Positions 30,154 to 57,676 of a stretch of 64,000 nt of DNA are shown here, piece after piece. A program made the translations under genes and the position numbers. Below the pieces are notes generated by a model that ran no database searches, was not told where the DNA came from, and was given only the letters and a program-made list of their open reading frames with translations. The first letter of the stretch is position 1; the number at the start of each line of letters is the position of its first letter. Location: the NCBI GenBank assembly GCA_964035015.1, contig OZ036013.1:7582051-7646050 (forward strand). The letters are read 5' to 3'. The DNA is from Corallium rubrum (lineage: Eukaryota > Cnidaria > Anthozoa > Scleralcyonacea > Coralliidae).

Positions 30154-31383
30154 TCAAGAAAGTTCTCCGAATAGGGCACGCCACGTGCTATTTAATGGCT
30201 GTCCCTCCTGAGAAATAGTGTGATGTTTGGCGATCTCAATGGATTCTCTAGTTCTTCGCGTGAAGTATTGCTTGTCGCTGGCTAAGAGTGATGACTCTTC
30301 CCACTTAACACGATGGTCATACGTCCAAGCGTGTTTGGCAACAGCAGACTTTTCTTGTTGCGCTTTTATGCAAGATGTCTTGTGTTCCTTCAGGCGAGTT
30401 GAGAGATTCCTTCCCGTTTCTCCGATGTACACCAAGCCACACTCACAAGGAATGCGATACACTCCAGGCTTAGATAAGCTATCCACTTCATCTTTATGTG
30501 TGAAAAGTACCTTGAACAATTTGTGTTGACTACTGTGAAATACCTTCATACCAGCACGATTTAGAATCCTCTCAATCTTGTGAGATGCTGGTCCGATATA
30601 CGGAAGAGAAACTGAAGGTGGTTCTTGCTGGGGCTGTGTATTCGGCTCTGGATGTACCGAAGGAGTCATAGAAGCTTGAATCATCTTCCCAGGAAAACCG
30701 TTGTTAGTTAAAACCAACTTAAGGTGATCTAATTCTTCCTGAAGATGTTCTTCGTCACAAATTGTTCGCGCTCGATGAACGAGAGTTTTGCACACAGATG
30801 ATTTAATACTTGGATGATGGAATGAAGTGTAGTTAAGGTATCTGTCAGTGTGTGTTGGTTTTCGATACACAGTATGACTTAAAGTCCCATCTGATTTAAC
30901 GGAAAGCCAAACGTCCAAGAATGGGATAGATTTGTCTTGATTTTGTAATTCCATAGTGAATTTGATTGAAGGATGTATGCTGTTAAGGTGGTCAAGAAAA
31001 TTAGACAAAGCATTCAAACCGTGTGACCAGGTACTTAGCGTATCATCAACATAACGTTTCCACATACCTGGTTTTAACAGGGCAGTTGCAAGAGCCTTCT
31101 TCTCAAATTCCTCCATGTATAGGTTAGCCATGATTGGAGACAAAGGGGAACCCATTGCTGCTCCAGTAGTTTGTTCGAAAAATCTGTTCCGCCATTGAAA
31201 ACAAGTTGAATTTAGGCAAAGCGTTAACAGTTCATAGACCTGATCTGCAGAAAGATTCGTTCTTGTAGCGAGCGTTTTATCTATTAGAAGTCTTTCTTTT
31301 GCAATCAGGCACGCTTCGTCAATGGGAACATTCGTAAACAAACTAACAACATCAAAACTAACTAATATCTCATCATTAGCCAA
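30154..31383 (-). CDS. Penelope reverse transcriptase with GIY-YIG endonuclease (partial)
   Basis: The 409-aa frame is open further upstream to about 31447 (VGKSIHHVLNSKEFV). It shows the palm motifs VSFDVVSLFTNVP (A), GAAMGSPLSPIMANLYME (B), KRYVDDTL (C, catalytic DD) and FLDVWL (D). After a Pro-rich linker comes a GIY-YIG nuclease: GVYRIPCECGLVYIGETGRN with the conserved Arg, and KEHK. RT copies the element RNA and the GIY-YIG domain nicks target DNA. The N-terminal part of the RT, including the fingers, is missing because the copy is 5'-truncated. The C-terminus is FGELS and stop. All visible catalytic residues are kept, so truncation was recent. Confidence 0.9.
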   Translation of the reverse strand: MANDEILVSFDVVSLFTNVPIDEACLIAKERLLIDKTLATRTNLSADQVYELLTLCLNSTCFQWRNRFFEQTTGAAMGSPLSPIMANLYMEEFEKKALATALLKPGMWKRYVDDTLSTWSHGLNALSNFLDHLNSIHPSIKFTMELQNQDKSIPFLDVWLSVKSDGTLSHTVYRKPTHTDRYLNYTSFHHPSIKSSVCKTLVHRARTICDEEHLQEELDHLKLVLTNNGFPGKMIQASMTPSVHPEPNTQPQQEPPSVSLPYIGPASHKIERILNRAGMKVFHSSQHKLFKVLFTHKDEVDSLSKPGVYRIPCECGLVYIGETGRNLSTRLKEHKTSCIKAQQEKSAVAKHAWTYDHRVKWEESSLLASDKQYFTRRTRESIEIAKHHTISQEGQPLNSTWRALFGELS

Positions 31384-31629
31384 CTTAAGTGTCTTAATTT
31401 CAGAGACAAATTCCTTAGAATTTAATACATGGTGAATGGACTTACCAACATCACACTATTTCTCAGGAGGGACAGCCATTAAATAGCACGTGGCGTGCCC
31501 TATTCGGAGAACTTTCTTGATTTTGTTTTCTAATTAATAAAATTAACGTGATACGCCATTGTATTCTTACGTGATTTAATTGATCAGTTGCTTAGTTTAT
31601 AAATGACGTGAGCCAACAACTTGTTGTCA

Positions 31630-42242: not shown

Positions 42243-42310
<68 letters not shown>

Positions 42311-43084
42311 CACGAAATATTGTTAAGTGGGATATTCTATTTACTGATAAACCGGCCGAAAGATACTTTTTTTAGCATAATAATCCAGATATAATATTTT
42401 TTTTATTAATAACCATTATCATTTCAAAAATAGTCAGCCATATTTCGCTTTTGGAAAATTGGGTAAATTCTGAGCTTCCATGTCCTCACACTAGTCACTG
42501 TGGCTTGGAATTATTCATGCCAGAACACGGCGCTGATATGCGAGCTGATTATGAACAATAGCTGTATTTGGCTTGCATTTTTACAGGCCAGTTTTAATAC
42601 AATGACCTGTAGAAATAGTAAAATTCGTCACAACACCTTGATATGATCCTTTGGCTTGAATTTCTTTAAGCCATAAATCTATTCAGATATTTAAACATGT
42701 TTCTCTATAGCAAACCAACAAAAAGCAACAACCTGCCTTAGTTTGCAACACTTCCTTGGTGTGATTTTTTCAAGCCAACTCAATATTAACATAAATTTAT
42801 GTCTGGTAATAAAAAATACTGGTTATCTAATTAGTTTACAAGAACCGGGAAATAACGCCTTAATGGTTTTAATATTTCAAGCCATAATTCTATTCAAAGA
42901 ATCAAAAGGAATTTTGTTTAGCAAAACAACAAAAATTATTCTGTATATATAATTCTAGACTGATGCAACAATATACTGTACACATTTCTCCAGCAAAACA
43001 GCACATTTTAGTTTAATATATATATATATAGTACCTCATACACATATACAAAAAATGACTTGGACTTATTCATTACAAGTCAAC

Positions 43085-43791
43085 TATATGTATAGGTAAT
43101 CATATGATAGCGAGTGCAATTAATGATTTTACACTACGAGTGATATTTGAAAATTGATCCAAAATTGCACGAGCCGTAGGCGAGTGCAATTTGGCTCAAT
43201 TTTCAAATATCACGAGTAGTGTAAAATCATTAATTGCATGAGCACAATCATATGATTACTTGTTTATTATATGCATGACAAAATTACGATATCTACCTTA
43301 ATTACAGTCAAAAATTTTTGTCTTAATTTGAATGTTTATTGGCCATACAACCACAGACAATCTTAAAACGTTATTCAAAGCAGTGAATTAATTTTTCTTT
43401 CTGGCAACTAACTATAAGTAATCACAAACTTCAAAACCAATTTACAATTACCTGAAGTGTCAATCCTTGTCGTACGCTTCGTAGTAATTCGCGCGTTTGA
43501 AAACATCTTGTTTCGTTACAACTGGACAACAAACAGTTTCACTTATGGTGAGCAGATGTTACCTGTATTGATCTTCAAATATTTACATGAAATTTTCAGT
43601 TGAAAGTGTTCCACAAGTCGTTGGAAAAGTCAAAATCTTTCAATTTGAAAATACGCCGCCATTTTGAATTTTATTTTTTACCACTGTTACCATGGTAACA
43701 TTAATTTGCACTCCGGAGAATGCAATTAACGATATAATTGCACTCCTCTTAGCCAATCAGATTGCAGTAATTTTGTCATGCATATAATAAG
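43085..43791. mobile_element. Palindrome-headed foldback element
   Basis: Head 43095-43258: arms GTAATCATATGA-AGCGAGTGCAATTAATGATT ... around TGCACGAGCCGTAGGCGAGTGCA. Body: TTATTATATGCATGACAAAATTAC at 43264 and its inverse at about 43791, with AGCCAATCAGATTGCAG near the right end. A partial relative is at 54664-54830. Confidence 0.65.
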
Positions 43792-43796
43792 AAGAA

Positions 43797-44030
43797 ATAA
43801 CAATCGAAATATGGTATAGTAGGTTAGTACTGCCGAAACAAAGAACGTGAGTGGTCTAACGTTTCGAGCGAAGGCCCTTCGTCAGAGAGAAACGTGGGGC
43901 CTTCGCTCGAAACGTTAGACCACTCACGTTCTCTGTTTCGGCAGTACTAACCTACTATACCATATTTCGATTGTTGTTTCAACACTTCCTACGCAGCACA
44001 CTACTTTTATTACACTATTTATATAAAAAA
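43797..44030. mobile_element. Penelope family C mini-palindrome
   Basis: Inverted copies of the family C end (CAATCGAAATATGGTATAGT, CTGCCGAAAC, AACGTGAGTGGTC) meet near 43890-43898. The left arm holds a full hammerhead; the right arm lacks the CTGACGA box. The tail on the right continues TGTTTCAACAC, TACGCAGCACACTAC. Confidence 0.75.
43853..43889 (-). ncRNA. Hammerhead ribozyme motif, family C
   Basis: Minus strand: TCTCT, CTGACGA, GGGC-CTTC-GCTC, GAAA, ACGT, T, AGACC. Complete core, short stem I. Confidence 0.65.
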
Positions 44031-44919
44031 ATATTGCCTGTCAAAAACAACTAGCCTAATACCTGGAAGTTATTGAAGTCATAGCTTAGTTCTACAGTAT
44101 ACTGTACAAAACAAACACTTAATTCTAGTTTGTCCAGCAATTGCCACACACCTAAACACTTTAGTATAAAGGATTGAAAAGCATTGGTTTGCATTTTTTA
44201 ACATGCTTCAAGCCATAATTCTTGCATTGATCTGACATACTGTACTAAATTTCATTGAACACTTAAACATGAAAATAAAGTGATAAAAGGTAATCTGAAC
44301 TATATACAGTAAATTAACTTGTTTCTGCTGATGCAGACCGTCTTCCATGGTTACACTCTTTTAGCTAATTTGACACAATCTTACTTAGTCAGGAAAGCCT
44401 ACAGCATACTGTATCAGCAAAAATAGTAAGTCCAAATTGGGCACAATAGCAATGCCATTGCTTTTGTCTCCAAGTGGCATCACAAGTACAATATATACAT
44501 GTAGTTTAATTGTTATAATTATAGTTGTTTTCATGCATTTTCACTTTAAAGTTAAATTGCATGTAGAGTGAATGGACTCATTCCTGCGCAGACCACATGT
44601 CCTTGACAATTACAGTAATACACTAAAGAATAGATTTATTAAGATACTTTAATTCATTCTTGCCTACTAGACAACTTCTTCCCAAAATTGCAAAATGCAA
44701 ATAAAATCTCTATGCATTAACTAGAGCAAAATTAAAAAGGAACTCAAGTTAATTACTGAAACCTGCCTAGATGATATTACCCAATGTAAAAGGTTAACTG
44801 GACAGGAATAAGTTAATATGACAGCAAGCTTACAGCTGTTGTACTGTAGCTTACTATTGACTATTATAAATTATAAAATAACATGTATACTACGTGAGCC
44901 CTGATTGGTCAATTGCTGT

Positions 44920-45195
44920 GTTTGGATCAGAGTATCCAAACATGGAAAATTCCTGCCAAAACGATTGTTTGAAAATGTTGGACACTATATCATATTCACT
45001 TGTGATTATTTTATAAAAGAAATACCAAATTTTTTTTCCGTGTTTGGAAACTCTTATCCAAACACTCGGGAAATTGCTTAAACTTTCGAAAAGCTAAAAA
45101 CACTCGCCTACAGCTCGTGTTTTGTTATGCTTTTCTCCAGTCTCGCAATTTCCCGCGTGTTTGGATCAGAGTATCCAAACACAGAAAACCATATG
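44920..45195. repeat. Long imperfect palindrome (TATCCAAACA family)
   Basis: GTGTTTGGATCAGAGTATCC at 44927 recurs inside the inverted right arm (45157). The loop contains AACACTCGCCTACAGCTCGTG (45100-45120). A related inverted pair with AAACACTCGAATGAGTTTG and inverse lies at 45345-45470. Confidence 0.55.
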
Positions 45196-45905
45196 GTATT
45201 TCTTTAACAGGTTGCATGTGTCTTACGCACGCTGTGATTAGTAAGTTACCATGTTAATATCAGGCTATGCAGACATGGTTGTGATGTCATGGCACATTTC
45301 TTAGTCTTATTTCATAAAAGAAATTAAAAATGGATGCCCTGTGTTTATACGTGGTGCAAACACTCGAATGAGTTTGGGAGAATTCAAAACTTATGTAAAC
45401 CCTCAGCTATACCTTGGGTTCACATAAATTTTTGAATTCTTTCAACTCACTCTTTTGTTTGTATCAGGCTATATAAACATGGCTATCCATTTTCTATTTA
45501 TTTAACAAGTATAAAATTGCTTGCATGTCTCTGTAATGTGGTCCAAACATGCACAGATGATGTTACTTCCACCGGAAAAAATGCTTAGTGGAAACAAGAG
45601 GTGCAGCCAAGTGTTTTCACGCATTTTTTCCAGTTGAAATTGCATCATTTGTGTCGGAATCACAGTGAAGAGTCACAAAAGCTATTTTCTATTTGTTTTA
45701 TAAAATAACCATTTTACAGCATACAACCCAAGGAGAAGCCACCGAAGTGATCAAGACTCAAATGACAAATGATGGTGTGATCAAATAATTGTGCCAAGTG
45801 ATTATCTAAGACATATTTAACCAAAAAAAGCATGCATTGTACAATAAAAGATGAAAATTAAGTCAAACAGGTCTCTGTACTCTGATTGAATTTGGCCTTG
45901 TCCAA

Positions 45906-46297
45906 TCAGAGCGAGCGTAGGACACCTGTTATTTTATAATTCCTAATCAATTTATTGATATTGAGCATAAAATTCCCTAATCCGTTTTTTTGTGCTGGCC
46001 TGGTCAGCTTATCACTATCATTTAGCTGAAATGCTGCAAGTAAAACACACTCTTTTGGTAGTTCATCTATCCAAGGATTACCACTTTCATGAAGCCATGG
46101 TACCCACTTTTTGTTCCAACTCCCTTTCCAATAATGCATTTTAAATGTAGTGGTTTCTTTCTCAACAACTTTCCCAATGACAGGAACATTGTCATAATTT
46201 TCAAGTCTTACTGCCACAAATTCACCAATTTTGACATGCTCCCAAATATCATCCACTAAAATTGCTGCTGATTTCCTGTAAGGATCAGTGTAAACCT
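45906..46297 (-). CDS. C-terminal exon, unknown protein with W-rich Tudor/PWWP-like domain
   Basis: It opens after acceptor ATTTATTTTTAG and reads VYTDPYRKSAAILVDDIWEH, then VKIGEFVAVRLENYD-VPVIGKVVE, FKMHYWKGSWNKKWVPW, WIDELPKECVLLAAFQLN and a stop at 45906. The GE/D-FVAVR ... IGKVVE ... W-x-GSW start looks like a small beta-barrel (Tudor/PWWP-like) followed by a P-E-C-V/ILL-x-F-x-L motif that I associate with mobile-element-linked cnidarian proteins. No function can be assigned. It is most likely the last exon of the minus-strand gene that starts at 49347. Confidence 0.5.
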
Positions 46298-47224
46298 AAA
46301 AATAAATTCATGTAAAAACCACTGTTGTACGTTCTACAATATTGTTTTTATATACATGTAATTAGTTTATTGGAACAATCATTATGTCACTTTGTTGATT
46401 TTTTTGTTTATGGATATACATGTGTAGTAATATTTGTTATTAAGTACATTTTGCGTGCATTTAAAGGTACATTTGAAGAAAACTACCTTCTTTTTTGAAA
46501 CTTTTGAAGTTATGAAGATTGGTCTTTACTGCTCTTGCTAAACTACCTTACTTCAGTTGTCATGAATTCCTTTTTGCAAACCCATGAATGTCTCTGATGT
46601 TATCCAACAAAGTTACTTAAAACGTAAGCAGGTGTATGTATTTATTAACACTATAAACCAGCAAAGCTTTCAAAGATTTAATGGATAATCACAAAGATAT
46701 ACTTCGTTTTCTAATACAGTAACTCATTATGCAATGTGAAGTAAGCAGTGAAATTGTTTACATATCAAACAAATCTCTGTCTCAAGAGCAGTGAGATACC
46801 CGACAGTTGTAAAGACCAATTTTTTATAACATACAAAGTTCTTACCAGAGAGAACATTTCTTTCAAGTCTATTTTTTATTAAATAAACATTATTTTTTTT
46901 CACCAAGAACATTTTCACAGATTATTTTTATTTAATATATTTTTACTTTAATTATTGCATACTATTCTGGACAAAAATTTATATTGTTTAACAGCACCAA
47001 TGTTCAGGTATCAAACAAAACAATGATAATTTTTGCTGGATGTTTCTAATTATGACAATGTATCATGGATAGTCTGTGGACCTACATGTAGTTAATCAAT
47101 TTTTTGTGAAATTATACTACATCCTCAATTAATTAATTAATTAATTAATTAATTAATTAATTAGTATATGTTTTGCCAACCACTGTTTCACATACATAAA
47201 TTTTTTGTCAGCCCTATTACTAGT

Positions 47225-47622
47225 TTATGTTAATAGTTCTGTCTGTTCAAAGGCATTGTCAAATATCTCATTGATTTTGACAACTTTAATACCTAATTTA
47301 AGTGCCTGTTCGATACAGTTCAAATAATTTGTTGTGCCATATTTACAACAGCTTGTTGCTATCATTGACATTGAACGATTATTTCTTGAAAATGTTTTTG
47401 TCAGTTTCAAGGGTTTTTTCTTGACATCCTGATCAATTAACAAGTGTGTCACATCCCTGTACAGAAACAAGCTGATATATTAGCCACACGCTTTAGCAAC
47501 ATTTGTTCTATGGTTTTAATAGTACCATCTGTCCACTTCTGGGTTAGGTGTAGAAAAAAAGAACATACCTTGCAAGGACTCGCTTTGCCCAGCATCTTGG
47601 TCTTTGTTAAAACTTTTTTTCT
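47225..47622 (-). CDS. Middle exons of the minus-strand gene (47622-47569 and 47538-47225)
   Basis: Exon 47622-47569 (acceptor AATTGCAG, donor CAAG|GTATGT, 18 codons) joins in phase 0 to a block starting 47538 (acceptor ACCTAACCCAG): KWTDGTIKTIEQMLLKRVAN ISACFCTG. A one-base shift near 47457 then leads into DVTHLLIDQDVKKKPLK, MSMIATSCCKYGTTNYLN and IEQALKLGIKVVKINEIFDN, stopping at 47225. The succession (helix, then VTHLL, then a LGIKVV-I-EI strand-helix) faintly resembles a BRCT or Dbf4 motif-N fold. That is a guess. The frame break suggests decay or a sequencing error. Confidence 0.35.
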
Positions 47623-47742
47623 CTGCAATTACAAAAAATTAATTAATATTATGGTCACTCCCAAGTCTAAGATCTTCTTACGAATATTTTTTTTAAAGAA
47701 CAGAGAATTCTGTGAAATATAGTATAAAGAACATAGATGTCT

Positions 47743-47870
47743 AACGTTTCAAGCGAAAACCCTTTGCTCGAAACGTTAGACATCTAGTATCTACGTACGC
47801 CAACCTTACTTTCTTTCAATTTGTATTTCAGTACTACCTAAGCGGCACCCTACTTTTTATTTGCTTCGCT
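47743..47870. repeat. Penelope family C remnant
   Basis: Inverted TCTAACGTTTC-AGCGAAAACC and GGGT-TTTGCTCGAAACGTTAGA are followed by the tail TATTTCAGTACTACCTAAGC. No CTGANGA core survives. Confidence 0.5.
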
Positions 47871-47979
47871 AATTGTTTGAGGAGGGCTGTGTCTATTTGA
47901 ATAGACTTGAATCCTGATTGAGTTCGAATTTCATAGTCGTTGAGATTTTACAGTTGATTTCATATTATTTTACCGCCGT

Positions 47980-48205
47980 GGTTTGCCAAGTTCGTTGGGA
48001 AGTTCCCAGTTCCGAAGTTCGTGGGGAACTGCGGAATTTTTAATACGTTGTCAAGGTTGACAAATTATCCAATCAAACTGCGAGGTTTGGATCAGAGCTC
48101 ATTTAATATGACTGGATAATTTGTCAACCTTGGCAACATAATTCCGAAGTTGCGAACGAACATCGGACTCCCAACGAATTTCGCAAACACGGGGAAAGTA
48201 AAATC
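47980..48205. repeat. Foldback MITE
   Basis: Arms TTGCCAAGTTCGTTGGGA ... GTTGTCAAGGTTGACAAATT and the inverse at 48117-48195 surround CCAATCAAACTGCGAGGTTT. About 225 bp, no coding. Confidence 0.6.
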
Positions 48206-48611
48206 TAATGTAAGCAGGTGGATGATAAAACCGCCAAACCGGTATAATGCTTGCCAATAGCGACACGCATAGTTACTATTTAAAGGCTAAAAATCAGACA
48301 AACAAATCGAAATTGCTCCTAGCTTCCACACTTTATATTTTCAAATAAGAAAATGAGCCCTTTTATAGTTTTTTCTTTGACTTTAAATGCAAAACGTGAT
48401 TTCCTGGGTCCTCTAGCCCAAACGGATACCCTAAATTGTAACAGCAACATTTACCGCCCAGCTTTATATACACACAAACCTAACCCGACCAGTGAGTACG
48501 CTAAATTACAAACTAAACTGCACTCACTGGTGTACTTTAAAATTTTGACTGAACTTTATCAAAAAAAAATTAAATCTGGAAAGAAAACCATAAATATATA
48601 GATCTATATAG

Positions 48612-48735
48612 AGATGTCAAAGTAGTGTGCTGCGTAGGCAGTGTTTAACACACAAATCGAAATATAGAAAGGTTGCAGTGTACTGCAGGCGAAACATGGA
48701 ACGTAGGGCTAAGTAAACGTTTCTCGAGAGAAACA
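48612..48735. repeat. Penelope-like end, degenerate
   Basis: GTGTGCTGCGTAGGCAGTGTT and ATCGAAATATAGAAAGG resemble family C; CGTTTCTCGAGAGAAAC replaces the hammerhead region. Confidence 0.45.
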
Positions 48736-48936
48736 ACTAGTCTAGAGAAGTTCGTTTACAGGCCCGCAAATATAGCTACGGCCTATTTTGTTTGCCGCGT
48801 GATCCGCCATGTTCGTTATCTAATTACAGAATATAGACCACCTTGTTTATTCTGCCAAAATGTTTACGCGCGGATAAAACAGAGCAATTTAATTGGTAGA
48901 ATTACTTAGTATGTTGTACGACAATATAATAGTTAC

Positions 48937-49347
48937 CTTCTTCCTCGTGACTGTCGCTGCTAGAGTAAGAAATTGGATAGCATCCAATGTCGCTGTCGTG
49001 GTCGGTATCTGAGTGTAACAATGTAGAATGGCCGACAGGCGACCCACAACTCAGCGATGCATGGTGATAAATCTGAATGTGCAGCCCGTTTTATTCCAAT
49101 GTTCGGAGAACTATCGCTTACTGTGCTGAGAAGAGAATCGTAAAAATCGGCGGCGTCCTGTTCTAAATAATTTGTTCTACTGCAAAAGATTTCTCTCGTA
49201 TCTGACGCTGGGCTAGTTATAGAATCGGCATCGTCCTGTTCTAAATCACTTCTTCTACATGAAAAAACTTCTCTCGCATCTGACGCCGGGCTAGTTATCG
49301 AATCGGCGCCGTACGGGCTCCTCCAATTCACTCGTGTTTAAATCCAT
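48937..49347 (-). CDS. First exon, acidic repeat-containing protein, frame-broken
   Basis: ATG at 49347 gives MDLNTSELEEPVR. Coding-like sequence then moves to a second frame (GADSITSPASDAREVFSC ... DADSITSPASDTREIFCS, a 26-residue tandem duplication, then DSLLSTVSDSSPNIG). Near 49075 it moves to a third frame (SCGSPVGHSTLLHSDTDHDS ... SSSDSHEEE), ending at donor GAAG|GTAACT. The Ser/Asp/Glu-rich composition is that of a disordered N-terminus. Either two indels have broken it or the sequence has errors. It starts 654 bp from the divergent gene at 50002. Confidence 0.45.
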
Positions 49348-50001
49348 AAGCCATTAAATACCAACAATGGAAAATCACGTTTAAGCGATGCGCAACAAAA
49401 AACTGAATCAAACTTCAGACAATGTTTTCCTTCATGCAGAACATCCTTGCCAGGTGCGCGATCAAACTAACGAATTCTCGAGCGTTATGCTTTTTTGCTT
49501 GATTTTGATTGGCTCGCATAATTTAGCCCTTTAACATGAGTGGTCCACCCTTGATGTTATTGCTTACTGCCAAGCTGTTTTCTAATAAAGCGTTCTCAAA
49601 TTGCCTAAACCGAGTAGGGGCAGAAAGGCTACACATGCATGCCCTGAAGGGCAAAACAGAGAAAAATTATTATGTTTGTAGACTGGCAAAACTGCGCTTG
49701 CCAAGTCTTTAAATCAGGCACGAACAAAAAAAACCCCACAAACACAGGTTAGCTAGTTACGTTAGCCTTCAGGAATGTGGACCAAGGTGGTAGATAATGA
49801 GTTAACAGGAAATATTTATGCTATCTATCACCAAGTGACAAATTGAGAACAAAGAAAGTAGCTAAGAAAGACCAGCCGCTTGAATACAATTGGATTAAAA
49901 ACTGACACAATGCTTTCTCGTTCAACAAACGATGGTGTCGGTATTCATCAGATCGTTTCTTTTCGTTGGACCACTTGAAGTTTTCAATCGCATAGTCGAA
50001 A
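49348..50001. promoter_or_regulatory. Divergent intergenic region of the 13.2-kb element
   Basis: 654 bp between the two divergent ATGs; the presumed bidirectional promoter. It contains ATTGGCTCGCATAATT (inverted CCAAT-type) near 49510 but no TATA box at a convincing distance. Assigned by position only. Confidence 0.3.
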
Positions 50002-50184
50002 ATGGAGTGTGGTGCCGGTAACCGAAGCTCGAAAGAAAGGTTCGATCGAGCAAAATGGTGGTTTAAACGTGACTTGTCGAAGATTTATGTAGAAAGAGGA
50101 ATTGGTAGAGCAACAAGCGGTGGAAACTTGTTGTTGGATGTAGTCAACATTCAAGCAAGTGAAAAGAAACCAGACGCGTTAAAG
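50002..50184 (+). CDS. Unknown gene, exon 1
   Basis: A 61-codon exon from ATG at 50002 to donor TTAAAG|GTTAGC: MECGAGNRSSKERFDRAKWW ... RDLSKIYVERGIGRATSGGN, LLLDVVNIQASEKKPDALK. Basic, with no domain I recognise. It splices in phase 0 to the exon at 50326. It is the plus-strand partner of the divergent pair in the 13.2-kb TIR element. Confidence 0.5.
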
Positions 50185-50325
50185 GTTAGCAAGCATTCCA
50201 GTGCTCACATGCATTCTAGCATGTAAAACTTTTTAAATATTGGCCTTTTCTTAACCTAGCTCTCTATCTTTAATATAGAAGTCTTTTTATGGTATGAACA
50301 ATGATTTTTTCTCTATTCGTTGTAG

Positions 50326-50894
50326 ATTCAGTTCCGCGATAAACAAATGCAAATGGTGTTCAAGCTCACGTTGTTCGATTTTACCGGTAACAATTTCTCG
50401 CGAAATTTTGAGCCCTTTGTAAAATCAAGCAAAAGTTTTACCGCTAGAGTGAATGAGGTGATCAGTAAACTCGACAACACAAAAACTGCCGTCGCTAGTG
50501 CCAAATTTCATCTCGAGTGTCGGAGCTACTAGTAAGTCCAATCCAAAGCTCATCTCGAGTGTTGGAGCTAAGTCCAACCAAAAGCTCATCTGGAGAGTCA
50601 GAGTTATGCCGTTCAGAGACGCCGTTGTCAAAACTCGAGGGAAGCCACGAAACATCTGCGTCAGATCCGCCGTCACCACATGCTGTGGATACACCCGAAG
50701 GACGAAAAGTAGAAAACCAAACAACTGCTCGACGAAAAACTAGACTTTTAAACAGAGTTTCCGTCGTGGATCCCGACCAGACGAAGTGAACATGAATGAA
50801 AGGTCCAAGAGAGCAAAAGTTGATAATCTGGTGCCAGTGGTGGACGACAACGTCTTTCACGAAACCATAATGAAAAACTTTTCAATTAAAGAAG
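50326..50894 (+). CDS. Unknown gene, exon 2 (three reading frames)
   Basis: Acceptor TTCGTTGTAG is followed by IQFRDKQMQMVFKLTLFDFT ... DNTKTAVASA in frame with exon 1. Near 50500 the coding-like frame shifts to SSRVSELLVSPIQ, SSRVLELSPTK and SSGESELCRSE (a short tandem repeat), then SDPPSPHAVDTPEGRKVENQ. Near 50780 it shifts again to DEVNMNERSKRAKVDNLVP and FHETIMKNFSIKE, ending at donor GAAG|GTATGT in phase 1. That phase matches the exon at 54225. Both shifts are in the same direction, so decay by two 1-base changes, or base-call errors, would explain them. Confidence 0.45.
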
Positions 50895-51584
50895 GTATGT
50901 GCCAAAGATATCATTGTGTTGTTTTGCATATGGTACTCTGATGAATGGCTTCATTCGAAACATCAGCACTACATTCTTAAAAATATTGGCAGTTTTGCTT
51001 TGTTGTTCTATATACTGTGCAATGGTTGACGTTTTTCTTGTGCTTTGGAAGTGCCCGTTTCCATCATCGAAGGCAGTATTTTTAGAACATCAATTAGATG
51101 TTTTCGCTTGTTGCATAGTCATAGAATTGTGCATAGAATTGTTTTTCTGTAACCGGCAAATTTCGGCAATCGGGTATTTGAGCAGATTTAAGTTGCGCGC
51201 CGCGGGAAAATCGAAGTTCGAGTGGTTCGACTGACATCCGCGTTGTTATCGTAGTTGTGAGCTAATGGTCGTTGTTTCTATTATTTCACAGCAAATTACA
51301 AATTTAGCACTTCCGAAATGTCGTCTTTTACCATCACAAATGCGAACTACTTAGCCACAAAACTAAAATCAAATGGCAGACGTTGTAATTTAACTCTGAG
51401 CCACACTCCGTGCCGACTTTTTCAATTTAATATTAAAGTCGATATCACTGTGGCAATATGGGTTTATATTCCCGTATTGTCATAGTGATATCTCCCGTTG
51501 CGTTTCACGCCAAAGCTCATGGATTAGGGTCGTTTCAATAATTCGGGGGAGAACAAGCTGCGGTTTGTTTAAACTATCAGTTAA

Positions 51585-51895
51585 CAATTATTCGCTGAAG
51601 GCGAGGTGAATATCGGTGTATAATAACCGAGACGAAGTCGAGGTTATTATTCACCGATATTCACCTCGCCTTCAGCGAATAATTGTTTTAGTATAATACA
51701 CATTTTTGTACTTTTAGGAAGAGCATTTTCTTTAAAATTGTTAATTTCCTTGTCTGTCGCATTGACAACTTTGGCTGGCGGCTATTTTGAATAAACGCTG
51801 TAGGTGATTATCGAGAATTAATCCGAAGTAGCTCGACCAATCAGCGCGCGTGATTTCCTATAATCACCTCTGTATTTATACTAATAACAGATAAT
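51585..51895. mobile_element. Palindrome-headed foldback element
   Basis: Head 51587-51690: arms AACAATTATTCGCTGAAGGC-GAGGTGAATATCGGTG around AATAACCGAGACGAAGTCGAGG. Body from TTAGTATAA to the inverted TTATACTAA near 51888, with GACCAATCAGCGCGCG inside the right end. Similar arms to 20866, so the two may be related. Confidence 0.6.
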
Positions 51896-52574
51896 CATGG
51901 TTTAAAGCTTTTAGACCCGAATAGCCATGATAAGAATAAAAGTCCACACAGGAAATTTTCATGATTTTCTAAGACGGCCGATATCAATAGGAAAATGCTG
52001 ACTAAAATGGGATTTTAAAAGGTACAAGTGCAAATCCCGCTCAAGTCAATATTTTGTCATTTTATTTTCATGTTTCTCAATTTGAGGATGATTGTCAATT
52101 AAAATCGAGACATGCAAATAGTTTAAGATATTATTATTAAAATTAGGCTGATGTGGTATTGAAAAAAAAAACGAATACCGATACCAGAAAAAAATACCGA
52201 TAATACCAATATATCGATATTTGTATTTTTCCACTAAACGACAAAAATGTCGCGGGTTTTCACAAAAAAGTTCGCTTTTATTCGTAGTATTTCGGATAAT
52301 ACAACCTGTTCCGCAGCCAGAAAAACCCGTGTTTTTCCGCTGCGGCAAAGTCTACAGAAATAACGTTTAACCACGCGCTGTCTTGAAAATGTTGCCTTCG
52401 CGGGAACTTGATAACGTGGCTCCACGACGCTTGAGTAAACGGAAAGACGCTGAGACGGTGGAGACACGCGGGGTGAAGAAGCTTGTTCTTTCTTTTTGTC
52501 TACGGAGCTGTATACCACGTATATCTTCGTACACAATATATTCAATAAAAATGAATAATTACATGGTTATAATA

Positions 52575-53835
52575 ACAACCCGATAGTTGAAGCGAAACAA
52601 CTTTACATATGTAGCGAAACAACTTTACGTATGTAGCGAAACGACTTTACGTATGTAGCGAAACGACTTTACGTATGTAGCGAAACGACTTTACGTATGT
52701 AGCGAAACGACTTTACGTATGTAGCCAAGGGAGCACGTTAGAATGTGATAGTTCTTGTATAAAATAAAATAAACTTTACTTACCTACGTTGTTGACGTTT
52801 TGTGCGAGGCGCCGAGTTCGATAAAACCGCTGACGATATGAGCCCCCGACGAGCGAGCCGAATACTCTCCGAAGATACGCGAGGGCGGAGCGGGAAGGGA
52901 AAAGAGAAGGGGAGTGCAACTACCGAGCACGTGATGGCTTTCAGCCAATAAAATGGTTCATTTAGAAATAGCTTTTCTCCGATGCTCGTAGCAACCTTTC
53001 TCGTAGCAGCAGATACTAGATCGAGCCAAATACACTAAAATTATCATATTCTACGACTCGTTAAGTAACTACTAACTACCCTATTAAAGTTCTTGTAAGA
53101 ATTTTATTAAAAACAATGAATAGTTTTAACACAAAAGGATCAGTACTCGTACTCGTACTGGTCGATCGTTCCACAAACTCGTCTCCTCTTCTTCTCGCAC
53201 GAACTCACGAAGGAAATAAATGAAACAAAAACTTCCCAAAATTTGAACGATTCAGTTGGTTGACCTTGCAATCTAACTCCTTTTGTATATGTTGTGGGCT
53301 TCTTCGGTATTGAGATCATACTCCTGGAGCGTCGACAAACAAACCCGCGATGGCGCGATTCTGACAATAAAAATTCAAAATGACTTATAACTTATTCATA
53401 AAAGCCAACGGTTTTCTCATCAGAGTCCAAATTGATAAATCATTAAACGAAAACAACTTACGTCCTGCTGTGAATATCACGAAGATCTGTTGTCTCGGTA
53501 TTCGTATATAATTGTTGTAAATAGCAACACTCTTTGTGCATAGCAACACTCTATGTGCATAGCAACGTGCTACGAGCATTGTCGAAAGAATCTTGTAAGT
53601 TGCACTCCCCTTCTCTTTTCCCTTCCCGCTCCGCCCTCGCGTATCTTCGGAGAGTATTCGGCTCGCTCGTCGGGGGCTCATATCGTCAGCGGTTTTATCG
53701 AACTCGGCGCCTCGCACAAAACGTCAACAACGTAGGTAAGTAAAGTTTATTTTATTTTATACAAGAACTATCACATTCTAACGTGCTCCCTTGATGTAGC
53801 GAAACGACTTTATATCGCGAAACGACTCTGTACCG
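52575..53835. mobile_element. TIR element with promoter-like arms
   Basis: Inverted arms of about 205 bp (52720-52925 and 53595-53797) share GGGAGCACGTTAGAATGTG, AAAATAAACTTTACTTACC, ACGTTGTTGACGTTTTGTGC, CGCCCTCGCGTATCTTCGG and GGGAGTGCAACT-type sequence. Outside the left arm are the 22-bp repeats. The arms are GC-rich and contain a splice-donor consensus (ACGTAG|GTAAGTAAAG) pointing outward, like a promoter plus first exon. No protein product is recognisable between the arms. Confidence 0.55.
52603..52724. repeat. 22-bp tandem repeat, about 5-6 units
   Basis: The unit GTAGCGAAACGACTTTACGT plus AT is repeated five to six times; the first two units carry CAAC for CGAC. One or two inexact units sit at the opposite end of the same element (53795-53830). 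TAGCGAAAC is also near 55368, inverted. Confidence 0.85.
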
Positions 53836-54224
53836 GTATATGCAGATTTCTTGGCACCGAAAAATTCCAAAGACTGCGTCTGCGATCGCACTTTGAATAG
53901 TCCTGCTGTGACAATGGTTTTTAAACAAACAGTGTTTCACAAAACGCACGATTCCACTGGGAAATACAAACAAAAGATCATCGGTATGTAAAGAAATAAG
54001 GTTACATGACACGTCGAATACACGGGTCAATTTTAAGGACAATTTTTAAGGTGGCTCCATATGGTTTTTTGAAAAATGGAAAATACAAGTTTGAGAGTTC
54101 AAAACACGGGCATAAATAATTTGGAAAAAGAATAAAAGTAAATGTTAGTTGCTTTACTGGTAATTCATGAATGCACAAGTTGCCTTGTATTTCAAAATAT
54201 ATTTTTATCTTTTTATACTTGTAG

Positions 54225-54553
54225 ATAGTAATCACCTAACAAAGACAGTTTTGCCTTTTGTGGCTAGTCGAACTAGTCACAAGACTATTAAGGGATGTGA
54301 TATGTTTTCCATACCCAGTGAGCCATTCACCAAAGAAAAAGATAGTGGTGTCATTTACGAAAGACAAAAGCCTGTTGCTTTGTATTCTTCCTTGTTGGAA
54401 ATCTTTCATCCTGACAAGTTGTTACATGTCTTAGATTCCTGCAGTGGCGCAGGATCTTGTGCAGTTGCATGTTTAAATGCAGGACTAAAATGCCTTGTTT
54501 TAGAGAAAGATCTACTAAGAGCTAGACTTATAGAGCAAAGATTACAGTTTTAA
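54225..54553 (+). CDS. Last exon: methyltransferase-like Rossmann motif
   Basis: Acceptor TTTTTATACTTGTAG; phase 1, giving DSNHLTKTVLPFVAS when joined to 50894. Then PSEPFTKEKDSGVIYERQKP, HPDKLLHVLDSCSGAGSCAV, ACLNAGLKCLVLEKDLLRAR and LIEQRLQF with stop. D-S-C-S-G-A-G-S-x-A-V-A-C-L-x-A-G followed by a strand ending in E-K-D is the motif I/II layout of SAM-dependent (DNA amino-type) methyltransferases. The preceding KPVALYSSLLE resembles the conserved KP...L element found just upstream of motif I in such enzymes. A catalytic (D/N)PP(Y/F) motif is not visible in this exon, so activity is unproven. Confidence 0.55.
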
Positions 54554-54663
54554 TTTACATGTAAACATTTTTGGGGACATTCATCTGTTTTTTAAACATC
54601 GTGTTAAGTGATATTTTTGTTTTAAATTTCCTTTGGACTACTGAATATTTTGGGCCAAATATT

Positions 54664-54830
54664 AATATATGTAACCATATGACAGCGAGTGCAATTAAGG
54701 ATTAACACTAATAGTGATTTTTGAAAATTTAACTTTTTCAAATATCACGAGTAGTGTTAATCATTAATTGCACGAGCAAAATCATATGCTTACTTATTTA
54801 TAGTATTCGTGACAAAATTACAATGTTTTG
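54664..54830. repeat. Partial foldback repeat, relative of 43085
   Basis: AACCATATGACAGCGAGTGC ... TCAAATATCACGAGTAGTG ... CATATGCTTACTTATT ... GTGACAAAATTAC. It lacks the loop segment and the right end. Confidence 0.55.
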
Positions 54831-55663
54831 GCTATATTGTCGTATTACATATTTCTCTGTTTATTCTAAAAATGTTAATTCTTCTTTTATATTAGAATCA
54901 TATATTTATTTCATTGATTGACTTGAAATATTTCAGGTCAACAAGAGAAGTTGATTTGTTCTTGAGTGATATTTGGCTTGAAAAATTTCAAGACATATAA
55001 CTCATGTTAACTCATTAATCGAGTTGGAAAATATTGGGCTTGAAATTTTTCATGCCAAACATATCACCTTATTTTGGTGTTTGAGGTTATTTCATATGAT
55101 TTATTATAAGACATGGCATATTCAGCAGAATTGAGTAATCTCTACCTTCAATAACCGCGGTTTTAGATTAGACTTAAAAATTCGTCCTATTTTTAACACC
55201 GTATTTTTCTAAATAGAAATTATGTCCTATCAAATTAACGTTTAGCAATACATTTGCAAACATTTTTTCAATAAACTAACTATTTTTGATCAGTTTTATT
55301 TGTGTTTACCTGGGCTTTTTCTTATCTTGCTGTAACGTAATATTTTTTAAATAATATATATACGGTTAGTTTCGCTACACTTTAGGGAAATTGTTAATGA
55401 TTTTTACTTCCAGTTACCGGTTTGAACAAAGTAAAATAAAAGCGAATTTTTATCTAAAATGGAAGAAAAATTTTGGATAATAAACTATCGTTTCATTAAA
55501 TTTTTTCAATAATGTGCTAAATAGAATATCCCACTTAGAAATATTTCGTGTTATATATATATATATATATAAATTCAAGGATTTGATTTTCGTAGAACAG
55601 TGCTCAATACATAAAGTAGAGCGAAGTATATGTTGTGGGAGAAAAAAGACAAATAAATAATAT

Positions 55664-56158: not shown

Positions 56159-56590
56159 CTAAATGAAAGAGAATCGCTCATTGAGGCCGTGAGGGTGAAT
56201 GGTACCAAGTTTGTAAATGAGACGCATTTCTTGTTTACGACGAGTATCGTTACAACCTGTGATGGGCTGAATGGCACAGATTTTCATGTTGGAAAAGGAG
56301 TGGTTGGCACTGTTGAAGTGCCTGGCAACAGGTTTGTTTTGCACATTGTATTTGACATCACGAAGGTGTTCAACAAACCTGTCACCTAAACGTCTTCCAG
56401 TTTCTCCGATGTAAAGCATGGGACATTTACTGCAAGAGATACAGTAAATGAGGTTGGAGGAAGTGCAAGTGAAACTGTGGGTTATGTTGAACCTACATTT
56501 TGGAGCCGAAATTGAAATTGAGGAGTCTAAATATTTACAGGTGTTGCACCTACCACGACAGCAAGAGCTGGTGCCAACATGTGATACCAA
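56159..56590 (-). pseudogene. Inverted duplicate of the element 2 GIY-YIG domain
   Basis: A 143-aa minus frame, identical over its length to the C-terminus of the 56732-57676 product (VSHVGTSSCCRGRCNTC ... LNERFSFI). It is part of the inverted arm; it lacks RT sequence and any start context, so it is a by-product of the palindrome. Confidence 0.85.
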
Positions 56591-56731
56591 GGCTTGCTGC
56601 AGTGAGCTGTGAACAACGTTTTCCCGGATGTTTTTGCTATGCCGAAAAGATACTAGGGGTTTCTCAGAGAAAATGGAAGATGTTTCTGGGTCATTTTTAA
56701 TGAGGTCGAAATTGCGGTTAATGAGACTAGT

Positions 56732-57676
56732 GTGTCGTTCTTAGATATTCTTGTCTCCATTAATGGTAATAAGCTGAGCACTTCTGTCTTTTACAAGACC
56801 ACTAACTCTCATAGCTACCTCCTCTTCTCCTCTCATCATCCTAAACACACCAAAACTTCCATTCCTTTCTCTCAATTTCTTCGTCTTCGCCGCCTCTGCA
56901 GTGAAGATGACGATTTCAATGCCAAATGTTTGGAAATGAGAAACTTTTTTGTTAATCGCGGTTATCCTTCCCACCTCTTAGACACTGCCTTACACAAGGT
57001 CTCCAACATTTCCCGTTCAGACACCTTAAGCGAACCTTTGGCTACCATTTCTAATGAAAAAGTACCTCTAGTTCTCACTTTTCATCCCTTCAATTTCAAA
57101 GTAAGGGACATCATTAACCGCAATTTCGACCTCATTAAAAATGACCCAGAAACATCTTCCATTTTCTCTGAGAAACCCCTAGTATCTTTTCGGCATAGCA
57201 AAAACATCCGGGAAAACGTTGTTCACAGCTCACTGCAGCAAGCCTTGGTATCACATGTTGGCACCAGCTCTTGCTGTCGTGGTAGGTGCAACACCTGTAA
57301 ATATTTAGACTCCTCAATTTCAATTTCGGCTCCAAAATGTAGGTTCAACATAACCCACAGTTTCACTTGCACTTCCTCCAACCTCATTTACTGTATCTCT
57401 TGCAGTAAATGTCCCATGCTTTACATCGGAGAAACTGGAAGACGTTTAGGTGACAGGTTTGTTGAACACCTTCGTGATGTCAAATACAATGTGCAAAACA
57501 AACCTGTTGCCAGGCACTTCAACAGTGCCAACCACTCCTTTTCCAACATGAAAATCTGTGCCATTCAGCCCATTACAGGTTGTAACGATACTCGTCGTAA
57601 ACAAGAAATGCGTCTCATTTACAAACTTGGTACCATTCACCCTCACGGCCTCAATGAGCGATTCTCTTTCATTTAG
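56732..57676 (+). CDS. Penelope RT C-terminus plus GIY-YIG endonuclease (partial)
   Basis: A 314-aa frame, open to about 56718. It begins at RT motif D (ETSVSFLDILV), then the thumb-like region (YKTTNSHSYLLFSSHHPKHT, FFVNRGYP). A Cys-rich linker CCRGRCNTCKYL follows, then the GIY-YIG nuclease: LIYCISCSKCPMLYIGETGR, FVEHLRDV, VARHFN and the QEMRLIYKLGT region. C-terminus FSFI, stop. Motifs A-C of the RT are missing, so it cannot reverse transcribe. The GIY-YIG residues are all present. The CxxxCxxC linker resembles those of Neptune-type elements. Confidence 0.9.
   Translation: MSFLDILVSINGNKLSTSVFYKTTNSHSYLLFSSHHPKHTKTSIPFSQFLRLRRLCSEDDDFNAKCLEMRNFFVNRGYPSHLLDTALHKVSNISRSDTLSEPLATISNEKVPLVLTFHPFNFKVRDIINRNFDLIKNDPETSSIFSEKPLVSFRHSKNIRENVVHSSLQQALVSHVGTSSCCRGRCNTCKYLDSSISISAPKCRFNITHSFTCTSSNLIYCISCSKCPMLYIGETGRRLGDRFVEHLRDVKYNVQNKPVARHFNSANHSFSNMKICAIQPITGCNDTRRKQEMRLIYKLGTIHPHGLNERFSFI

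Follow-up and report, generated by a model that had tools for sequence, protein, structure and literature searches.

The 64,000-nucleotide stretch of the Corallium rubrum genome analyzed here (contig OZ036013.1, positions 7,582,051 to 7,646,050 of the forward strand; hereafter the window) contains, between window positions 42309 and 55552, a non-autonomous terminal inverted repeat (TIR) element that very probably arose by internal deletion from a giant cut-and-paste DNA transposon with a DUF7869 transposase. Its minus-strand gene is, by the sequence of longer relatives, a transposase gene with DUF7869 as its putative core, and its plus-strand gene (the METHYLTRANSFERASE gene) ends in a DNA-methyltransferase-like exon; in the window copy itself, the methyltransferase domain is incomplete and no functional transposase is encoded. 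The initial annotation had recognized the divergent gene pair, the S-adenosylmethionine (SAM)-methyltransferase-like motif I of the plus gene and a W-rich exon on the minus strand, all of which are present. It had not recognized a known transposase in either gene, because the minus gene has lost its DUF7869 core in this copy. The 13.2 kb that it assigned to a TIR element indeed belong to a TIR transposon, with a length that includes two private insertions (Table 1).

The inverted ends begin 5'-AACACG, measure 35 bp each and match at 33 of 35 positions; the 37 of 39 matches initially reported had counted flanking TATA. We searched the 474-Mb genome containing the window with a 28-base end pattern at up to three mismatches and obtained 42 matches, as against none for the reversed pattern, which places the ends far beyond chance. 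Of these matches, 34 can be paired with a partner that faces them at a distance of 11-28 kb, which gives 17 pairs, and several loci thus share the same ends as had been anticipated; eight are unpaired (C8:35094563, C9:36185, C20:2084027, C128:75650, C1:19665021, C1:54211174, C12:15500411, C75:9849); on these proportions, the idea that the family consists mostly of solo ends or MITEs (miniature inverted-repeat transposable elements) is rejected. An exact 4-bp direct repeat flanks 17 of 17 two-ended copies, with one A/T counted into each end (the count omits the one-ended copies C20c, C8:35094563, C9, and C128, and four ends with two mismatches). Outside pure (TA)n, the identity between the two flanks stops after 4 bp in 14 of 14 copies, and 0 of 182 mispaired left/right flanks used as a control agree. 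The presence of this duplication at all two-ended copies therefore indicates that the element is mobilized as a whole, with a stagger of 4 bp. The duplication is short, as the initial annotation had expected, and the 14 copies show 14 different tetramers. The (TA)n that abuts the window copy is its target site and no part of the element: pure (TA)n flanks are found in three of the 17 copies (the window copy among them), where the length of the duplication is ambiguous, a fourth (B_C20a) lies in TA-rich sequence, and the remaining 13 lie in other sequence, by which (TA)n as a component of the ends is rejected. Polinton/Maverick elements duplicate 6 bp of their target, and an assignment to them is likewise rejected, as the duplication here is 4 bp and agreement over 6 bp is seen in only three or four of the 17 copies, depending on where the end is placed, all in (TA)n or TA-rich sequence.

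Two further groups of ends were observed. Those at C1:19665021, C12:15500411, and C75:9849 are variants (AT[GC]AAGAGGGATATTC after ACACGAAATATT), two counted bases off the ends of this family, and possibly represent a sister family. At L048:564 and L046:613, the ends are identical or nearly identical to those of the window family over 35-43 bp and then pass into unrelated sequence; these are either truncated copies or another type of element with the same ends. The sequence examined at L046 and L047 covers about 0.6 and 0.25 kb, respectively, of the inside of the element.

The 17 two-ended copies comprise nine of type A including the window copy (the other eight being 11.3-12.3 kb long), seven of type B (11.9-15.5 kb), and the 28.4-kb copy C20b (C20:12012458-12040906), which was read except for about 9.7 kb in its middle. 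In C20b, the BRCT-like exon (C20:12028167-12028628) and the exon for a barrel-like domain (12038204) are separated by about 9 kb that contains the DUF7869 exons, all on the strand of the minus gene. Single exons match Pfam DUF7869 (PF25273) with E-values of 1.6e-37 and 8.7e-13 (129 and 49 bits); joined over predicted splices, which were placed by eye throughout this copy, they match positions 2-192 of the 192 in the profile with an E-value of 4.2e-69 (232 bits, cut-off 26). By comparison, DUF7869 exons are absent from all 16 short copies, which were examined at full length and include the window copy, and none of the 36 genomic PF25273 matches falls within them. It is because of this loss that the transposase of the window is unrecognizable, and 40 of the 50 window open reading frames (ORFs) of at least 60 amino acids were scanned without a transposase match. 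The A and B copies have the same breakpoint on the BRCT side and different borders on the barrel side; the common breakpoint makes it likely that DUF7869 was lost in one ancestral deletion.

That the short copies probably moved in trans is well supported. Divergence, taken over positions that align to the window copy, amounts to 0.1-1.4% among the A copies and 2.4-3.1% between A and B, with 793 of 13,248 positions variable among the short copies; synonymous and non-synonymous variants in their ORFs occur in near-neutral proportions, and frameshifts are common. The barrel exons of the window copy and C20b differ by about five synonymous and 25 other changes, partly in a shifted tail. In six of the seven B copies, the broken BRCT-like exon is fused to the same nested repeat, which has more than 100 other matches in the genome (and was removed from the query for the BRCT genome search), implying that the gene was already broken when these copies spread. 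Such a sequence of events is most simply explained by movement in trans. The closest pair (B_C1c and B_C8b), which have different contigs, flanks, and duplications, are only 0.02% apart, which suggests very recent movement and would open both activity and self-methylation to direct testing. The genes of the element are themselves dispersed repeats in the host genome. Beside one of the two private insertions of the window copy, the foldback at 52726-53793, we observed an adjoining array of 22-bp tandem repeats (about 52588-52725).

We propose that DUF7869 would be an RNase H-like DDD catalytic domain, and that a longer copy would make the DUF7869 transposase, which would bind the 35-bp ends whether the copy is long or short and cut the target with a 4-bp stagger, thereby moving the short copies in trans. 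Less certainly, an intact methyltransferase-like protein might methylate the DNA of the transposon itself (N6A or N4C), and this methylation might favor its expression or transposition or help it to escape silencing.

The second gene also occurs in a second family, represented by two loci that are 99% alike at the methyltransferase exon and share 43-46% identity with the window family. Both loci have the methyltransferase exon on the plus strand and DUF7869 and the barrel on the minus strand (Table 1). Between the families, the last methyltransferase exon shows a non-synonymous divergence (dN) of 0.52 against a synonymous divergence (dS) of 1.62 (dN/dS about 0.3), and the preceding exon a dN of 0.54 against a saturated dS of 3.5. 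That dN is below dS argues for purifying selection on the methyltransferase-like exons, and, together with the same layout, for a gene of the lineage rather than random cargo. A methyltransferase-like gene has thus been kept opposite the putative transposase gene while two families of the same nuclear genome diverged.

The plus gene ends in what resembles a β-class N6/N4 DNA-methyltransferase domain, with matches to PF01555 (N6_N4_Mtase) that lie below the Pfam cut-off. The window exon (54197-54550) scores an E-value of 0.005 (17.3 bits), the second-family relative L049 2.9e-5 (24.5 bits), and the three joined C20b exons 0.0038 (17.6 bits, with the match confined to the last part). In β-class enzymes, motif IV (DPPY/DPPW) comes first, followed by helices and then motif I. 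C20b has two exons before the last one, of which the first is predicted to end in ...IIFIDIPK and the second has its homologue in the exon that precedes the one of L049; with the predicted splice, this order matches the β-class one, with DIPK in the place of DPPY. Both preceding exons are missing from all nine A copies, the window included, whereas the B copies retain the nearer one in seven of seven and part of the other in five of seven. The 107 codons of the methyltransferase exon show two synonymous and no other changes between the window and C20b, and one synonymous and four other changes between B_C8b and C20b.

Some of these data weigh against an active enzyme: the scores of 24.5 (second family) and 17.3 bits (window) are under the cut-off of 26.7, and motif IV at the C20b exon end is predicted as DIPK rather than DPPY. 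Among the A and B copies, 10 of 27 variants in the methyltransferase exon are synonymous against 25% expected (p = 0.11), by which a weak residual constraint on this exon is possible. A genome search with PF01555 gave no matches, even at the known exons, and is hence uninformative on other loci. It is quite possible, if somewhat short of probable, that the protein is no enzyme and persists as a DNA-binding relic with the fold and SAM motif I retained; the low scores and the DIPK motif would fit this, but the two families show strong conservation of motif I and of the residues preceding it (TKEKDSG...RQK...D.CSG.GSC...LEK), as expected for SAM binding, and the splice join at motif IV is only a predicted one. 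The most ambitious version of the proposal, namely a DUF7869 core of a giant-transposon lineage that keeps its own bacterial-type methyltransferase, with an N6-methyladenine or N4-methylcytosine mark read differently by the transposase or host chromatin, strikes us as unlikely; if true, it would describe a transposon writing its own epigenetic mark.

As to the transposase, a very improbable alternative is Pack-type gene capture, with ends moved by an unrelated transposase and with the BRCT, barrel, and methyltransferase exons as pieces of host genes. The near-neutral variation and frameshifts within the short copies, where clear coding constraint is not seen, and the failure to match a transposase among the scanned window ORFs would be in keeping with it. 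However, the barrel and methyltransferase exons accompany DUF7869 on the same strands and in the same layout in the divergent second family, a repetition not expected of independent captures, and on this ground captured host genes as cargo are rejected; furthermore, the barrel and DUF7869 occur together at additional loci, and the methyltransferase exon is under purifying selection between the families. Equally hard to credit is that the DUF7869 exons of C20b belong to a nested, different transposon and the native transposase is another, for although all 16 short copies lack them and nested insertions are frequent in the window family, they sit between the BRCT-like and barrel exons on the strand of both, an order that recurs on one strand at C20c and C1:80.53-80.61 Mb, and DUF7869 followed by the barrel is also found at C1:7.17 Mb, C39:2.22 Mb, C52, C2, and C232. 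The barrel exon at these other loci lies 3' of DUF7869 on the same strand.

Several observations nonetheless tell against a DUF7869 transposase paired with a methyltransferase. The three domains are spread over 81 kb at C20c and 73 kb at C1:80.5 Mb, where we infer that they belong to one element; C310 has DUF7869 and methyltransferase matches on the same strand; other methyltransferase copies, which are decayed (C151, C13:12.89 Mb, C8:26.9 and 6.07 Mb, C30, C28), lack a nearby DUF7869 match, and the DUF7869 loci C52, C2, C232, and C1:80.6 Mb lack a methyltransferase match; and neither second-family locus gave a match to the BRCT-like exon in the sequence read, which stops short of the ends. 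The genes of C20b, as seen in the sequence on either side of a middle part of about 9.7 kb (C20:12021801-12031499), may be incomplete. The Pfam matches of the barrel (17.3 bits, cut-off 27) and of BRCT in a B-type copy (E-values of 0.0048 and 0.002; 17.5 and 18.8 bits, cut-off 21.3) are subthreshold. The role of DUF7869 is itself read from sequence: two divergent DUF7869 proteins have DN...NKN and GHT..D motifs in common, with the second and third aspartates aligned, but the first is shifted by one column and can be brought into line only by inserting a gap by eye. The AlphaFold2 model computed for a DUF7869 relative with a single ORF has a mean predicted local distance difference test score (pLDDT) of 37.7 and does not confirm the fold, and that of the barrel (mean pLDDT below 42) gives no usable fold.

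Other searches added little. Neither the BRCT-like ORF nor a DUF7869 exon had a significant match in a sequence search of the PDB, scans of viral contigs gave no relatives, an NCBIfam scan gave only weak matches (E-value of 0.011 or worse), and no domain was found in the 5' exon candidates of either gene. Pfam gives no function for DUF7869 (PF25273), and a full-text search of the open-licence literature found no papers naming it; the likely role suggested here is that of the transposase core of a 4-bp-duplicating TIR transposon.

We also noted additional DUF7869-related loci. The region C20:1994303-2084058 (part in L043) has BRCT-like, DUF7869, and barrel matches and a left end over about 90 kb, with no right end found, and is a probable second long copy. 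Divergent DUF7869 genes are present at C52:5323480-5325612, C2:268200-271544, and C232:113356-116383, each with a barrel 1-2 kb downstream, and at C13:15474950 (L050) as an uninterrupted 702-amino-acid frame; no methyltransferase match was found beside any of the four.

Table 1. Features of the element in window coordinates, and loci of the second family in coordinates of their own contigs
Feature	Coordinates	Strand	Remarks
Left 4-bp target site duplication, ATAT	42305..42308		Inside (TA)n; exact length ambiguous in the window copy
Left terminal inverted repeat	42309..42343	+	5'-AACACGAAATATT...; 33/35 match to right end
Insertion, 702 bp	43090..43791		Private to the window copy among copies compared
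Barrel exon, C-terminal, putative transposase gene	45909..46295	-	S1/CSD-TOTE-like Pfam match, E 0.0034
Site of lost putative transposase core	46323..47176		About 850 bp, matching nothing in the C20b parts compared
BRCT-like exon remnant	47177..47638	-	In-frame stops, three TAA in the window copy
Candidate 5' exon region, minus gene	48963..49337	-	Repeats; frameshifts in many copies
Candidate 5' exon region, plus gene	50744..50938	+	Frameshifts in several copies
Foldback insertion, 1068 bp	52726..53793		196-bp perfect inverted arms; window copy only, among copies compared
Last exon, methyltransferase-like gene	54197..54550	+	Motif I SCSGAGS, EKD; some preceding intron included
Right terminal inverted repeat	55518..55552	-	33/35 match to left end
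Right 4-bp target site duplication, ATAT	55553..55556		Flank comparison
Second-family locus C1: barrel; DUF7869; methyltransferase	7166965; 7170080-7171332; 7183689	-; -; +	
Second-family locus C39: barrel; DUF7869; methyltransferase	2221487; 2227189-2228386; 2232428	-; -; +	

Elsewhere in the window, a minus-strand frame at 30154-31455 has Pfam matches to reverse transcriptase and GIY-YIG and is presumably Penelope-like, and the region 56159-57676 has a frame accompanied by a partial copy of itself in inverted orientation; the frame appears GIY-YIG-like by eye and has no Pfam match at 0.001.

Among described transposons, the features of the window family would fit membership of the Sola superfamily. 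Sola elements are summarized as having a DDD transposase, a 4-bp duplication, and TIRs of 11-1124 bp (PMC10741241), and 4-bp target duplications are reported for Sola2 (PMC3627910). The window family resembles them in its 4-bp duplication, in its 35-bp TIR, which is within this range, and in its large size, some Sola members exceeding 15 kb, and its aspartates, of which the first aligns only by eye, may be those of a DDD transposase; it differs in that its duplication has no fixed motif. A partial parallel is offered by KolobokP, described as combining a DDD/E transposase with a homing endonuclease as a second enzyme (PMC9587614): the window family likewise joins a putative DDD-type transposase to a second, candidate enzyme, but that of KolobokP is a homing endonuclease, and Kolobok duplicates TTAA. 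As none of the 14 tetramers outside pure (TA)n is TTAA, an assignment to piggyBac or Kolobok is rejected.

The initial suggestion of an undescribed family may hold at the family level; at the superfamily level the features fit Sola and a giant brown-algal Sola1 is already in print. This element, Sola1-1_Ec32 of Ectocarpus, is described as a 21.5-kb giant DNA transposon with a ParB-methyltransferase gene opposite the transposase, and the account cites green and red algal cases and suggests that such methyltransferases may form a new class of accessory proteins of transposons (PMC12477816). For its giant families as a whole, the same account describes nested insertions that are fixed among the copies, pseudogenized transposases, and movement in trans. 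Among the matches listed in the open-licence literature on methyltransferases in DNA transposons, no such arrangement was seen beyond this source. The accessory protein of Sola1-1_Ec32 has a ParB-like domain; the six plus-gene ORFs of C20b that were scanned, alone or joined, gave no match to ParB. By its description, Sola1-1_Ec32 is the closest known system, both being giant transposons with an N4C/N6A-type DNA methyltransferase gene, or in the coral a candidate for one, opposite the transposase.

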